From a virus, in IMG/VR virus record IMGVR_UViG_3300005096_000520, positions 1 through 49,984 of that record: a DNA stretch of 49,984 nucleotides, one strand, 5' to 3'. A program made the position numbers and the translations under genes. The notes under the pieces were generated by a model. It was not told the origin of the DNA, made no database searches, and saw nothing but the letters and a program-made list of their open reading frames with translations. Positions 4,108-7,554 of this stretch are shown in pieces. Each line of letters starts with the position of its first letter. Position 1 is the first letter of the stretch.

Positions 4108-4178
4108 ATGCCGTGGGGATAGGGTTCCGGACCCGACAAGGTGAATGCCTCCACCTTCCCCACGGCATAACCAGAGGC
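4108..4178 (+). ncRNA. Structured RNA element, copy 1 (three-way junction with loop-tail pseudoknot)
   Basis: Predicted fold: P1 is an 11-bp stem, 4108-4118 (ATGCCGTGGGG) with 4158-4168. Inside it are two hairpins: P2 at 4122-4134 (GGGT/ACCC) and P3 at 4138-4157 (AAGGTG/CACCTT). The P3 loop carries GCCTC (4147-4151), complementary to the downstream tail GAGGC (4174-4178), giving a pseudoknot. A second copy at 4980-5049 has the same hairpins, loop and tail, but its P1 sequence differs with both strands changed together. That covariation argues for a real RNA structure. It lies between the 3D-domain gene and the zinc-finger gene. The class is not recognised. Confidence 0.7.
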
Positions 4179-4192
4179 GATTTGGCAAGGAG

Positions 4193-4309
4193 ATGCTTTA
4201 TATCCTGCATATCAAGGATTTTGCTGGTGTAAAGGACATAGTTGCATACACATGTGTTCTTTCAACAATCAGTGGGCTCTACAGCACATTGCCCCAGGGA
4301 GTGAATTGA
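4193..4309 (+). CDS. Possible 38-residue leader ORF
   Basis: A short open frame (MLYILHIKDF..., ending PQGVN) starts 15 bases after the tail of RNA copy 1, and its TGA overlaps the ATG of the zinc-finger gene at 4309 (TGATG). That overlap is the usual sign of translational coupling. The AAGGAG immediately before its ATG has no spacer, which is poor for initiation, so real translation is doubtful. No family recognised. Confidence 0.25.
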   Translation: MLYILHIKDFAGVKDIVAYTCVLSTISGLYSTLPQGVN

Positions 4310-4971
4310 TGAGCACAACCCTTGAATCTGTTGCAGAGAAACATACTGATCAGGATATATGTCCCCGCTACCCCGGCAACCCGACCAGGACAGACTTGAT
4401 GTGCGCCACAAGGCATAAGAAGGCCGTAAGGGATCCGGAGAAGATCCTTTATTCGAATTGTGCTGACTGCAATATCGGTAAAGAGGCAGCAATGAAGGAT
4501 ATCAAACCGATCAAATATACAGCCAAGCATACATCGACCGATACACATCCCTGTTCGCAGTGTGGCAGGCCTACCCGGGGCAAGTTATGTGCCGGATGTT
4601 TGCTCCAGGGCAAGTCAGGCTCTTCCAGGGAGACAAAGGAGACAGAAATGCAAAAACAAAAGATCTGCAAGGTTGAAGGATGCGGCAATCCTTTCAAAGC
4701 AAGAGGTTATTGTGACAAGCACTATAAAAATGCCGTTAAAACCGGTGAGATTAAGACTACACCCAGGAATAAAAAGAAGATCAATCCTCAACCGGAGAAG
4801 CAGGAAACGTGCAATGCAGAGAATATGACCGCCATGCTTGCCCAGCTTCTCTATTGCAGCCGGGTTCTCGATTCCGAAATCAACGCCGCCATGCTTCAGA
4901 ACAGGATCGAGATCAAGAATATATCCGATGTAAGGTTCCGCCTTGGAGAGATAATGAGAGGGGCTCTATAG
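4309..4971 (+). CDS. Multi-zinc-finger protein of unknown function
   Basis: 220 residues with three Cys/His clusters. These are NCADCN near residue 55; HPCSQCGRPTRGKLCAGC near 80-100, a four-Cys ribbon; and CKVEGCGNPFKARGYCDKHY near 120-145, the C-x4-C-x8-C-x3-H finger that often accompanies phage HNH or DNA-binding proteins. The C-terminal 60 residues look helical. No catalytic HNH motif is visible, so a DNA- or RNA-binding role is more likely than nuclease activity. An upstream in-frame ATG exists at 4252, but the ATG at 4309 has a good AGGGAG site 7-8 bases before it and overlaps the upstream small frame. The gene sits between the two structured RNA copies. Confidence 0.65.
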   Translation: MSTTLESVAEKHTDQDICPRYPGNPTRTDLMCATRHKKAVRDPEKILYSNCADCNIGKEAAMKDIKPIKYTAKHTSTDTHPCSQCGRPTRGKLCAGCLLQGKSGSSRETKETEMQKQKICKVEGCGNPFKARGYCDKHYKNAVKTGEIKTTPRNKKKINPQPEKQETCNAENMTAMLAQLLYCSRVLDSEINAAMLQNRIEIKNISDVRFRLGEIMRGAL

Positions 4972-4979
4972 TCCCATCG

Positions 4980-5049
4980 CCTGCAGGGATAGGGTTCCGG
5001 ACCCGACAAGGTGAATGCCTCCACCTTCCCTGCAGGACAACCAGAGGCA
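4980..5049 (+). ncRNA. Structured RNA element, copy 2, leader of the recombinase-Cas12 operon
   Basis: Same fold as the element at 4108-4178. P1 is 4980-4988 (CCTGCAGGG) with 5028-5036 (CCCTGCAGG), a different sequence that still pairs perfectly. P2 (GGGT/ACCC, 4992-5004), P3 (AAGGTG/CACCTT, 5008-5027), the loop TGCCTC and the tail GAGGCA (5044-5049) are kept. Here the loop-tail pseudoknot can form 6 bp. The GAGG of the tail is 5 bases upstream of an in-frame ATG at 5053, so the pseudoknot could hide a ribosome binding site. A second unmasked GGAGG serves the ATG at 5071. It may control the recombinase, the Cas12-like gene, or both. Confidence 0.72.
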
Positions 5050-5070
5050 TATATGGAAAGGAGGCATTCC

Positions 5071-5679
5071 ATGACAGCAGAGAGGACATCAACAAGGACA
5101 AGGGCCGGAGAGAACTATCTCACCGAGCAGGAAGAGAAAAGGCTTTTCAGACACCTGAAGGGCCTGAAATCCCGCCAGGCAGAGCGTGACTATGTGCTCC
5201 TGAAGCTCTGCCGGCTGACAGGGCTCAGGAGGGCTGAGGCACTGGCCCTCAATGTGGGGGATGTGATCAACCAGAAGAGAATAATCATCGACGAACGGAT
5301 CGCGCGCAAGGGGGCCGTGGGGGAAGTCGGCATCCCGGTGGAACTGCAAAAAATCATCAAGCGGTTCCTCTGGCTTAAGCGCACCTGGCGCGAAAGCCTT
5401 GATGACGAGGCCCCTCTGTTCGTGAGCAAGAGGGGCAACAGGCTCTCTCTGAGGGCCTTCAACGACCTGATGGACAAGTGGTGCAGATCGGCGGGGATCC
5501 CGCGCTATACTCCGCACGCCCTACGTCACACAAAGGCGCACAGGATACTTGAGAAGTCGGACAACCCTCCAAAGGCCCTGGTATATGTCAACAATCAACT
5601 GAGGCACAAGTCCTACAACTCGACACTCGTATACACCCTCCCTACAAAGGAAGAGAGGGAGAAGGTGGCAGGGCTGTAA
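5071..5679 (+). CDS. Catalytic-domain-only tyrosine recombinase next to Cas12-like gene
   Basis: 202 residues, about the size of the catalytic domain alone; the usual SAM-like core-binding domain is absent. Catalytic residues are all visible: R53 (TGLRRAEA), K80 (ARKGAVGEV), H149 and R152 (PHALRHT), H179 (LRHKSYNS) and Y188. It should be chemically competent, though DNA recognition without the N-terminal domain is unclear. The start at 5071 is chosen for the GGAGG 6 bases upstream; an in-frame ATG at 5053 would add six residues and lies next to the possibly masked GAGG of the RNA leader. The stop is one base from the Cas12-like start, so the two are almost certainly co-transcribed and coupled. 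Role unknown: mobility of the locus, integration of small DNA, or an unrelated phage function. Confidence 0.85.
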   Translation: MTAERTSTRTRAGENYLTEQEEKRLFRHLKGLKSRQAERDYVLLKLCRLTGLRRAEALALNVGDVINQKRIIIDERIARKGAVGEVGIPVELQKIIKRFLWLKRTWRESLDDEAPLFVSKRGNRLSLRAFNDLMDKWCRSAGIPRYTPHALRHTKAHRILEKSDNPPKALVYVNNQLRHKSYNSTLVYTLPTKEEREKVAGL

Positions 5680-5680
5680 C

Positions 5681-7204
5681 ATGGCGAACCATTTCAACAA
5701 GGGAGTCGTGTTCGGAAAACTGGCGGGGCTTGAACGGAAGAAATCCGAAGGGGGCAAACCCTACATCCAGATATACCTCGAATGCCCGAACGATCTCCAC
5801 GGGGATGCAAAGGTTTACGGCCGGATGTGGGGAGAAGACAGGGTCAATGCCTTCATGGCCGGGCTGAACAGAGACGGCAAGCTCCTCATGGGGACCGGGC
5901 TCAGGCTTGAAGGATTTTTCAGCCAATACGACGCAGAGGACGGTCTCTACTGGGCCAATGCGGCACATCTCAAGGACAAGTTCATGAATGCCTACTTCTC
6001 GTCTCTGAGGCATGGCAGGAAACTTCACTTCCATGCCTTTGACGGCAACCTCAGGTTTGAGCATGTCTTCACATCCGGGGGGATCCCGGCTGAGAAGATC
6101 TTCACCGACAATCCAAGGCAGAAACGTATCAGGATAACTCCTATTTCCCGGGATATCTACCAGGACAGGCAGCGGGGCATTATCTCTCAGCGGGAGATGA
6201 AACGAAAGGCGCGCACCGAGGCGTTGATAACGCTTGCAGGCCTCCAGATGAGGTTCCGGACCATATTGCACCGGCCGGTGCCGGAGGGGAGCATCCTCAA
6301 GAAAGCCGTCATCAAGCGGATCAGGACCGGGAGGTACAACTACAGGTGGACTCTCTCGCTGACCGTAGAGGTCCCGCCGGATGATTCGATGCCCGCAGGA
6401 CAGGCACCCGCCGGCAAGACGGCAGGGCTCGACGTCGGTTACAGGATGATCGACGGCCGCCTGCGTGTTGGCTATCTGGCTGGAGATGCCGGACAGATGG
6501 AGATATACCTGCCCGGCCGGATAATGGAGCGGTTCATCCATGTGCAGGAGCTGCAACAGAAGAGCGACGCCCTGCTTGAGGAGATGAAGGCACGCCTGGT
6601 CGAGATGCTCCCCGAGGGGCTCCCAGCGGAGCTGAAAGCAAACTGGCATATGGCAAGGCACGGAAGGCTCAGAAAGATTATCCGTTGGCTTGCGGATAAC
6701 AGCCCTGAACATATAGCCCTCAGGGAACTGCGGAAATGGGAGCGGCAGGATGCAGCGATACAGAATGAGAAGGAGGGACTCAGGAGGCGTGCAATCAGGC
6801 AGAGGCAATGGTTCTACTACAACCTCGCGCACAGGCTGGCCGGAGAGTATGGGACCCTTGTGATCGAATCTCTCAAGCCCGGCGACCTGCAGAGGAAGAC
6901 CCAGCTTGATGACGACCGGACACTGCCCCGGAGAGCGTCTTTCTATCGAGGTATCGCTGCCGTTGGTGCTTTGCTCGACATTATTCAGGATGTCGGACGC
7001 CGAAAGGGCATGACGGTCCACAAGGTTGATCCCGCATACACCACGTTGACCTGCCATGTCTGTGGTCATGTGGTAGAACCCGTTGACAGGGCCAGCCTGC
7101 TCTGGTGCTGCGACGGCTGCGGATCCGAGTGGGACCAGGACTATAACGCTGCGTATAACCTCTATATGAGTGGAAGGGAGAGCAAAGAGGCAAAAGTTGC
7201 ATAA
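5681..7204 (+). CDS. Compact Cas12-like (type V, Cas12m-related) effector with N-terminal OB-fold
   Basis: 507 residues, coding directly before a CRISPR array. Residues about 4-95 look like an SSB-type OB-fold (FNKGVVFGKLAGLERKK, then alternating strands). From about residue 88 the order matches Cas12m/type V-U1 proteins as I remember them: GLYWANA, then KLHFHAFDG (114-122), a WED-like strand set (207-231, KKAVIKRIRTGRYNYRWTL), RuvC-I GLDVGY with D251, a helical bridge (280-385), RuvC-II VIES with E396, a TNB-type zinc ribbon (C458, C461, C477, C480) and RuvC-III DQDYNAA with D487. The D/E/D triad is intact, whereas characterised Cas12m proteins have a degraded site and bind without cutting. 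The helical recognition lobe expected at the N-terminus is missing. TnpB is the alternative, but no IS elements flank it and the array argues for Cas12. Confidence 0.88.
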   Translation: MANHFNKGVVFGKLAGLERKKSEGGKPYIQIYLECPNDLHGDAKVYGRMWGEDRVNAFMAGLNRDGKLLMGTGLRLEGFFSQYDAEDGLYWANAAHLKDKFMNAYFSSLRHGRKLHFHAFDGNLRFEHVFTSGGIPAEKIFTDNPRQKRIRITPISRDIYQDRQRGIISQREMKRKARTEALITLAGLQMRFRTILHRPVPEGSILKKAVIKRIRTGRYNYRWTLSLTVEVPPDDSMPAGQAPAGKTAGLDVGYRMIDGRLRVGYLAGDAGQMEIYLPGRIMERFIHVQELQQKSDALLEEMKARLVEMLPEGLPAELKANWHMARHGRLRKIIRWLADNSPEHIALRELRKWERQDAAIQNEKEGLRRRAIRQRQWFYYNLAHRLAGEYGTLVIESLKPGDLQRKTQLDDDRTLPRRASFYRGIAAVGALLDIIQDVGRRKGMTVHKVDPAYTTLTCHVCGHVVEPVDRASLLWCCDGCGSEWDQDYNAAYNLYMSGRESKEAKVA

Positions 7205-7251: not shown

Positions 7252-7554
7252 GTAGGAAAACTGGGTCCAGGTCAGGAAGCCTGGAACAGGGACAATCCCT
7301 GAGGGGATAGGAAGGCGGGCCTGTAGGAAAACTGGGTCCAGGTCAGGAAGCCTGGAACTCCGGATGGTGATAAATTTTTCCATGTTTAAGTAGGAAAACT
7401 GGGTCCAGGTCAGGAAGCCTGGAACTGGGGATCAACGGGTTTCTTGCCGCCGCTTTCTTGGTAGGAAAACTGGGTCCAGGTCAGGAAGCCTGGAACTGGC
7501 GTTCAGGATAGCAAGTCCGTCCGCGATGCTGGGTAGGAAAACTGGGTCCGGAAC
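7252..7554 (+). CRISPR. CRISPR array: four 36-base repeats plus one shortened terminal repeat
   Basis: Identical repeats occupy 7252-7287, 7323-7358, 7390-7425 and 7461-7496. Spacers are 35, 31, 35 and 36 bases (7288-7322, 7359-7389, 7426-7460, 7497-7532) and unlike one another. The last unit, 7533-7554, keeps repeat bases 1-17 and the final GGAAC but lacks the 14 bases between. In the full repeat TCCAGG (15-20) can pair with CCTGGA (29-34) around an 8-base loop, placing the hairpin two bases from the spacer, as in type V crRNA handles. The array begins 47 bases after the effector stop, so no tracrRNA fits between them. No spacer match was seen by eye in this window. No cas1, cas2 or cas4 is present. 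Confidence 0.95.

Follow-up and report, generated by a model that had tools for sequence, protein, structure and literature searches.

The window analyzed here is the whole of a 49,984-nucleotide stretch of viral DNA (IMG/VR record IMGVR_UViG_3300005096_000520, positions 1 to 49,984). On its plus strand it carries a 71-nt structured RNA in two copies, at about 4108-4180 and about 4980-5050. Copy 2 heads an operon encoding a tyrosine recombinase and then a Cas12-type effector, as originally proposed. Copy 1 had been placed at the head of a zinc-finger gene; that gene does lie in the copy 1 operon, but a 38-aa open reading frame (ORF) comes before it. On the minus strand, another tyrosine integrase together with a CI/LexA-like repressor (1-1077 and 1761-2402) marks the left end of a prophage. 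The features of the locus are listed below, with the basis of the call in brackets.

4110-4118, plus strand: 5' strand of stem P1 of copy 1, GCCGTGGGG; the AT at 4108-4109 can supply two more pairs (sequence, alignment).
4122-4134, plus strand: hairpin P2 of copy 1, GGGTTCCGGACCC, with the palindrome TCCGGA in its loop at 4126-4131 (folding, loop analysis).
4138-4157, plus strand: hairpin P3 of copy 1, with its loop L3, AATGCCTC, at 4144-4151 (folding, alignment).
4158-4166, plus strand: 3' strand of P1 of copy 1 (alignment).
4174-4178, plus strand: tail element T of copy 1, GAGGC, partner of L3 (sequence, L3 complementarity test).
4187-4192, plus strand: SD-like AAGGAG of copy 1, abutting the ATG at 4193; its match to L3 and one closing base is limited to GGAG (sequence).
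4193-4309, plus strand: 38-aa ORF 3' of copy 1, its stop overlapping the next ATG at 4309 (sequence reading).
4309-4971, plus strand: gene for a zinc-finger-like protein in the copy 1 operon (sequence; no Pfam match).
4944-4972, plus strand: sigma-70-like promoter, TGGAGA-17-TATAGT, whose end lies 7 nt upstream of the copy 2 P1 (one found, 1.0 expected in shuffles).
4980-4988, plus strand: 5' strand of P1 of copy 2, CCTGCAGGG (sequence, alignment).
4992-5004, plus strand: hairpin P2 of copy 2, with the palindromic loop TCCGGA at 4996-5001, as in copy 1 (folding, loop analysis).
5008-5027, plus strand: hairpin P3 of copy 2, with L3, AATGCCTC, at 5014-5021 (folding, alignment).
5028-5036, plus strand: 3' strand of P1 of copy 2, CCCTGCAGG (alignment).
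5044-5050, plus strand: tail element T of copy 2, GAGGCAT, 7 bp with L3 (sequence, L3 complementarity test).
5053-5072, plus strand: hairpin P4 of copy 2, ATGGAA-AGGAGGCA-TTCCAT, with the SD in its loop (P4 test).
5071-5679, plus strand: tyrosine recombinase gene, 202 aa, led by copy 2 (protein annotation).
5681-7204, plus strand: Cas12u1/Cas12f-type effector gene of the recombinase operon (protein annotation).
7252-7549, plus strand: CRISPR-like array of four full repeats (GTAGGAAAACTGGGTCCAGGTCAGGAAGCCTGGAAC) and one truncated repeat, spaced 67-72 nt, in a prophage-like region.

The original prediction placed two pseudoknotted RNAs at 4108-4178 and 4980-5049, sharing about 40 inner bases within different, perfectly paired closing stems, and both are present as described. 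The copies are identical in 60 of 71 aligned columns, with an uninterrupted identical core of 45 nt. P1 forms 9 bp in register in both, plus two outer A-T pairs in copy 1. Four of the nine pairs, all within the outer six, differ between the copies by two-sided changes that keep the pairing. Enclosed by P1, both copies have the same P2 (GGGUUCCGGACCC) and the same P3 (AAGGUG-AAUGCCUC-CACCUU), and they fold better than shuffled sequences (z of -4.0 and -2.9). The proposed pseudoknot was also confirmed: GCCUC of L3 pairs with GAGGC of the tail in both copies, with one extra pair, U-G for copy 1 but U-A for copy 2, where the helix extends to 7 bp. Neither the window nor the host assembly holds a further copy of the core (chance expectation, 0.00).

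Relatives of this RNA appeared only when stems and loops were left unconstrained. A strict pattern with 22 fixed bases, part of L3 included, returned nothing convincing from viral, phage, and plasmid collections or from 60 relatives, and neither did blastn with 63 nt. With GGGATA, GACAAGG, and CCTTCCC as the fixed bases, 36 viral loci were retrieved. Broader patterns yielded 105 bacterial contigs and 55 additional viral loci, an int-alpA-type junction pattern 44 loci, and a CGAAAAG pattern 10. The pattern matches include some non-members; P1 pairing continued for at least 3 pairs beyond the fixed bases in 64 to 100% of matches per scan, versus 5% expected. The resulting collection holds 185 related structures (87 non-redundant) carried by phages, satellites, and prophages, and, from contig titles, it spans at least Pseudomonadota, Desulfobacterota, Nitrospirota, and Planctomycetota. 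Phage-database searches found no cultured phage carrying the RNA. A protein search led to a genome of the same class in which the RNA lies directly 5' of a gene for a recombinase 66% identical to that of the window, and a viral contig (L039) likewise has it directly 5' of a recombinase gene.

In an alignment of the 81 members from outside the window, 95.3% of cells were paired, versus 67.8% after shuffling, and two-sided changes were seen in 16 of 19 pairs, including all nine of P1. The covariation score was 0.55, versus 0.117 for shuffled and 0.03 to 0.055 for slid alignments; because the alignment was fitted to the structure, these values are somewhat flattered, and the helix-extension tests are independent of it. 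A covariance model of the same 81 members (R2), from which the window was excluded, scored the window copies at 75.6 and 75.0 bits (E values of 7e-20 and 1e-19). Across 230 genomes of the host's class, R2 matched in 25, and the Rfam model of int-alpA exceeded its cut-off in 8. The junction (UAG, CGANAA, AAG-CUU) is near-invariant, members found by the covariance model included, although its strict conservation is partly imposed by the search patterns. P1 and P3 lengths showed no positive correlation. The original prediction had anticipated a regulatory RNA with conservation, covariation, and a pseudoknot, and had called for a homologue search and a statistical test of covariation, with a lack of further compensatory homologues as the outcome that would speak against it; the search found many. 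Two members on contigs titled Nitrospirae MAGs (L060 and L128) match two model-found relatives from the host's class (L278 and L270) at the RNA, so the window host is probably a Nitrospirota bacterium.

The RNA had been called unassigned, which is true of the window copies themselves: an Rfam scan of both gave no family match. Sub-threshold matches up to E 10 (HIV_FS2, mir-1976, and RAGATH-31) mainly aligned P1 and were rejected as chance, stem-only similarity. It is not true of the family as a whole, since 10 loci elsewhere pass the gathering cut-off of int-alpA (RF02996, 35.8 bits), with scores up to 48.4 bits. The int-alpA model gave no match to the window copies even at E 10, and none in the window's own genome. 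The copies do contain the UAG/CGAnAAG three-way junction of int-alpA, and an E. coli-type int-alpA locus (L214) scored 38 bits (E value of 8e-9) with R2, of whose 81 building sequences it is one. The likeness extends to the arrangement UAG-P2-CGAnAAG-P3, in which L3 can pair with the tail, and most of the 44 viral matches to int-alpA's own pattern have T, a P4 with the SD, and a start codon downstream. The junction sequences differ (GAUAG/CGACAAG/CUUC in the window versus CUAG/CGAAAAG/CCUG), as do the positions: int-alpA lies between integrase and alpA, an interval that is only one context among many for the family, whereas the window copies precede the 38-aa ORF with the zinc-finger gene and the recombinase/Cas12 operon. 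Rfam types int-alpA as Gene; sRNA, in contrast to the 5'-leader behavior, SD switch, and self-pairing loop proposed here. The window RNA has int-alpA as its only known (Rfam) relative; because the window copies fall below its cut-off, we class them as a variant of its kind, not as members of RF02996 in its current definition. int-alpA was reportedly described in a 2017 comparative-genomics survey, and our literature searches found no functional study of it.

Members of the family stand in front of genes. An SD and ATG follow P1 at about 32 to 34 nt (family quartiles, 30 to 36 nt), and a start codon with a preceding SD lies downstream of 173 of the 185 structures. Under strict criteria (ATG, at least 4 nt of SD, an ORF of at least 60 aa, and a distance of 12 to 70 nt), 78% of non-redundant members qualified, versus 8% of random positions. 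Family-wide, -10-like hexamers were enriched 2 to 12 nt 5' of P1 (odds ratio, 6.8; p, 1e-6). Each copy is best explained as the 5' leader of its own transcript. The positional data also bear on a reading in which the element is an attC-like hairpin DNA site for the neighboring recombinase, marking gene cassettes. The zinc-finger gene is indeed flanked by two copies, and recombinases follow at several loci; however, the genes after most members are not recombinases, and elements that pair with L3 sit at the SD, at fixed spacing to the ATG. We regard this reading as extremely improbable.

The pairing partners of L3 were analyzed as the longest Watson-Crick run in the 87 non-redundant members, with L3s swapped between members as the null (20,000 permutations). 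Runs between L3 and T averaged 5.01, versus 3.16 when permuted (z, 20; 0 of 20,000), and runs between L3 and the SD averaged 4.89, versus 3.50 (z, 15.5; 0 of 20,000). Runs of at least 4 with each of the two partners occur in 69 of the 87 members. Every one of these 69 draws on shared L3 bases for both runs, which makes the L3-T and L3-SD pairings mutually exclusive. The helices are of closely similar predicted strength (means of -10.2 kcal/mol for L3-T and -9.9 kcal/mol for L3-SD), with a within-member difference below that of permuted members (0 of 5,000). Within a given member T and SD repeat each other directly (z, 13.7), and this resemblance makes the two L3 matches partly dependent on each other. 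The SD in turn sits in the loop of the P4 hairpin family-wide (z, 12). A CsrA-type regulation through GGA in T and SD was dropped because many T sites without GGA (such as TGATA, TACAGG, and AGGGT) still match L3.

In copy 2, AAUGCCUCC is a 9-nt perfect complement of the recombinase ribosome-binding site GGAGGCAUU (5060-5068); expressed from the SD side, GGAGGCATT at 5060-5068 is the full 9-nt complement of AATGCCTCC, that is, L3 plus one closing base. The pairings of this copy comprise 7 bp for L3-T, 8 bp for L3-SD, and 6 bp for P4. Copy 1 is weaker: its T complementarity is intact, but its SD match is poor (4 nt) and its SD spacing unusual. Given that short match and an SD abutting the ATG, copy 1 may work less well or differently. 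In a held-out set from one class, L3-T was moderately member-specific (z, 3.1) and L3-SD was not (z, 1.0), because these members have nearly the same L3 and SD. The L3-SD signal was weak among 10 members of int-alpA proper (z, 2.9; 55 of 20,000). The original prediction contained neither the copy 2 complement nor, more generally, the exclusive second partner of L3, the SD in the P4 loop; nor did it contain the self-complementary P2 loop described below.

These L3 results weigh on two further readings. The first follows Rfam's listing of int-alpA (type Gene; sRNA) and takes the RNA for a trans-acting small RNA whose L3 pairs with the SDs of other messages. L3 is anti-SD-like and could pair elsewhere, but it fits its own SD better than those of other members, and the RNA continues into an SD and start codon at a fixed distance. 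Only 16% of members carry at least five T's after P1, so there is no general terminator, and a transcription terminator was dropped as a feature. We judge this reading very unlikely. The second is a 5' exonuclease-resistant or mRNA-stabilizing element. Viral xrRNAs combine a three-way junction with a loop-tail pseudoknot, a topology also seen here, and P1 lies close to the inferred transcription start; such a role would leave the member-specific L3-SD pairing, P4, and the palindromic P2 unexplained, and we consider it highly improbable.

The P2 loop is self-complementary. In both window copies it contains the palindrome TCCGGA. Among distinct 7-nt P2 loops of the family, the central 4-mer is a palindrome in 22 of 24, with 11 different palindromes represented (p, 8e-25); 20 of 30 distinct 6-nt loops also have one, and in shifted registers the same test gave 0 to 2. 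Control 3-bp hairpins of the same loci were palindromic in 7.6% of cases, and L3 loops showed no excess. In genomes found by the model and not by pattern, 18 of 22 distinct P2s were palindromic, versus 8.3 when shuffled. About 30% of distinct P2 loops are palindrome-free, mostly with GACG tetraloops and some without GACG as well. GACG tetraloops contribute to RNA-RNA kissing in retroviruses (PMC516450). The palindrome recurred downstream in cis in 1 of 27 cases, versus 1.9 expected, and hence gives no sign of P2 pairing in cis. In two genomes of the host's class, copies with different P2 palindromes occur. A loop that is palindromic but free in sequence is the trace expected of homotypic kissing, which suggests a dimer as a prediction; with a self-complementary P2, the RNA may have another copy of itself as its partner.

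The genes behind the RNA are diverse. Among 86 downstream proteins compared with Pfam and PHROGs, we found integrases, HNH, GIY-YIG, and endonuclease VII proteins, glycosyltransferases, methyltransferases, and tail assembly chaperones; most of the others were unrecognised. Satellites of E. coli carry the same RNA, with the same P2, ahead of several different proteins. At five loci (L022, L023, L034, L032, and L040) the RNA precedes tail-assembly-chaperone-like genes, so its use is not restricted to mobile nucleases. In the host's class, many copies lie ahead of genes with lysine-rich N-termini such as MGKKKEK, MEKKKRK, and MKKKNGK (L269, L272-L277, and L293-L296). We infer from this variety that the RNA looks like a portable leader for accessory (cargo) genes. 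In the window, the N-terminal ~92 aa of the Cas12u1/Cas12f-type protein share 37% identity with the first part of a phage protein that stands alone in L013 (5076-5687), where it follows the same recombinase; the window effector appears to be a phage protein domain fused to a Cas12. Its RuvC motifs are apparently intact by eye.

The same diversity counts against the chief rival reading, a riboswitch or protein-binding leader. In this reading the junction would bind a small molecule, or else a protein of the host or phage, that stabilizes L3-T or L3-SD, and the P2 palindrome would only aid folding of the ligand site. The very constant junction, also in members found by the covariance model, is in keeping with such a reading, as are the aptamer-like domain, the leader position with an SD expression platform, and T4 gene 32 as a phage precedent for a protein-bound leader pseudoknot (PMC3014915). 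However, no common pathway links the downstream genes, from integrases and nucleases to glycosyltransferases, tail chaperones, and unrecognised proteins, and a ligand leaves 11 different palindromes in one loop unexplained. We consider this reading unlikely, if far from negligible. The original description of the RNA as riboswitch-like fits insofar as two pairings of this 5' leader exclude each other and one of them involves the SD; of a metabolite the downstream genes give no sign.

We instead favor, as probable though well short of assured, a cis-acting translational switch coupled to leader dimerization, ahead of cargo genes. P1, P2, and P3 would form a three-way junction with the fixed core UAG-P2-CGANAAG-P3. 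Pairing of L3 with the tail element T after P1 would create a pseudoknot that leaves the SD free (gene ON), and pairing of L3 with the SD in the P4 loop would cover it (gene OFF). The P2 palindrome would be expected to form a kissing homodimer with another copy. The balance of ON and OFF would probably be set by the amount of transcript, placing a dose limit on recombinases, nucleases, and, here, Cas12; our guess at the direction is that the dimer is OFF, giving negative feedback. Comparative evidence supports the covarying structure, the leader position, both L3 complementarities and their predicted exclusion, P4, and the palindromic P2. We infer that these pairings form in the cell, that P2 dimerizes, and that dimerization moves the switch, and likewise the direction of ON and OFF and the switching signal.

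A wider proposal, which we offer tentatively and hold more doubtful than the switch itself, is a phage-wide portable leader cassette by which an mRNA might gauge its own abundance, the P2 dimer shifting L3 between tail and SD so that mobile cargo (nucleases, recombinases, and the Cas12-CRISPR operon) would be limited in dosage. Differing palindromes would then prevent cross-talk among leaders in one cell. We know of no phage precedent for translation control by pairing of a leader with its own copies. If P2 loops do dimerize, this would be a natural bacterial mRNA leader with translation dependent on pairing with its own copies. The switch would supply a testable mechanism for an Rfam entry for which we found none described, and the entry grows into a larger family; the RNA may also serve as a handle for phage accessory (cargo) genes, to be searched for on its 3' side.

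Several known systems resemble parts of this arrangement. The leaders of T4 gene 32 and rpsO (S15) are also 5' leader pseudoknots near the ribosome-binding site that control translation (PMC3014915). They bind their own protein product, whereas the present core is common to unrelated genes and its L3 has a choice of two partners. The T4-type homing endonuclease genes I-TevI and mobE have hairpins over the ribosome-binding site that conceal the start of a mobile phage nuclease (PMC3014915), and several genes downstream of the present RNA encode homing-type nucleases; those hairpins, however, are gene-specific and lack its junction, pseudoknot, and palindromic loop. Retroviral dimer initiation loops, finally, use palindromic loops and GACG tetraloops for RNA-RNA kissing (PMC516450). 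Their sequences and hosts are unrelated to those described here, and the present loop, for which the dimer is a prediction only, adjoins a translational expression platform.
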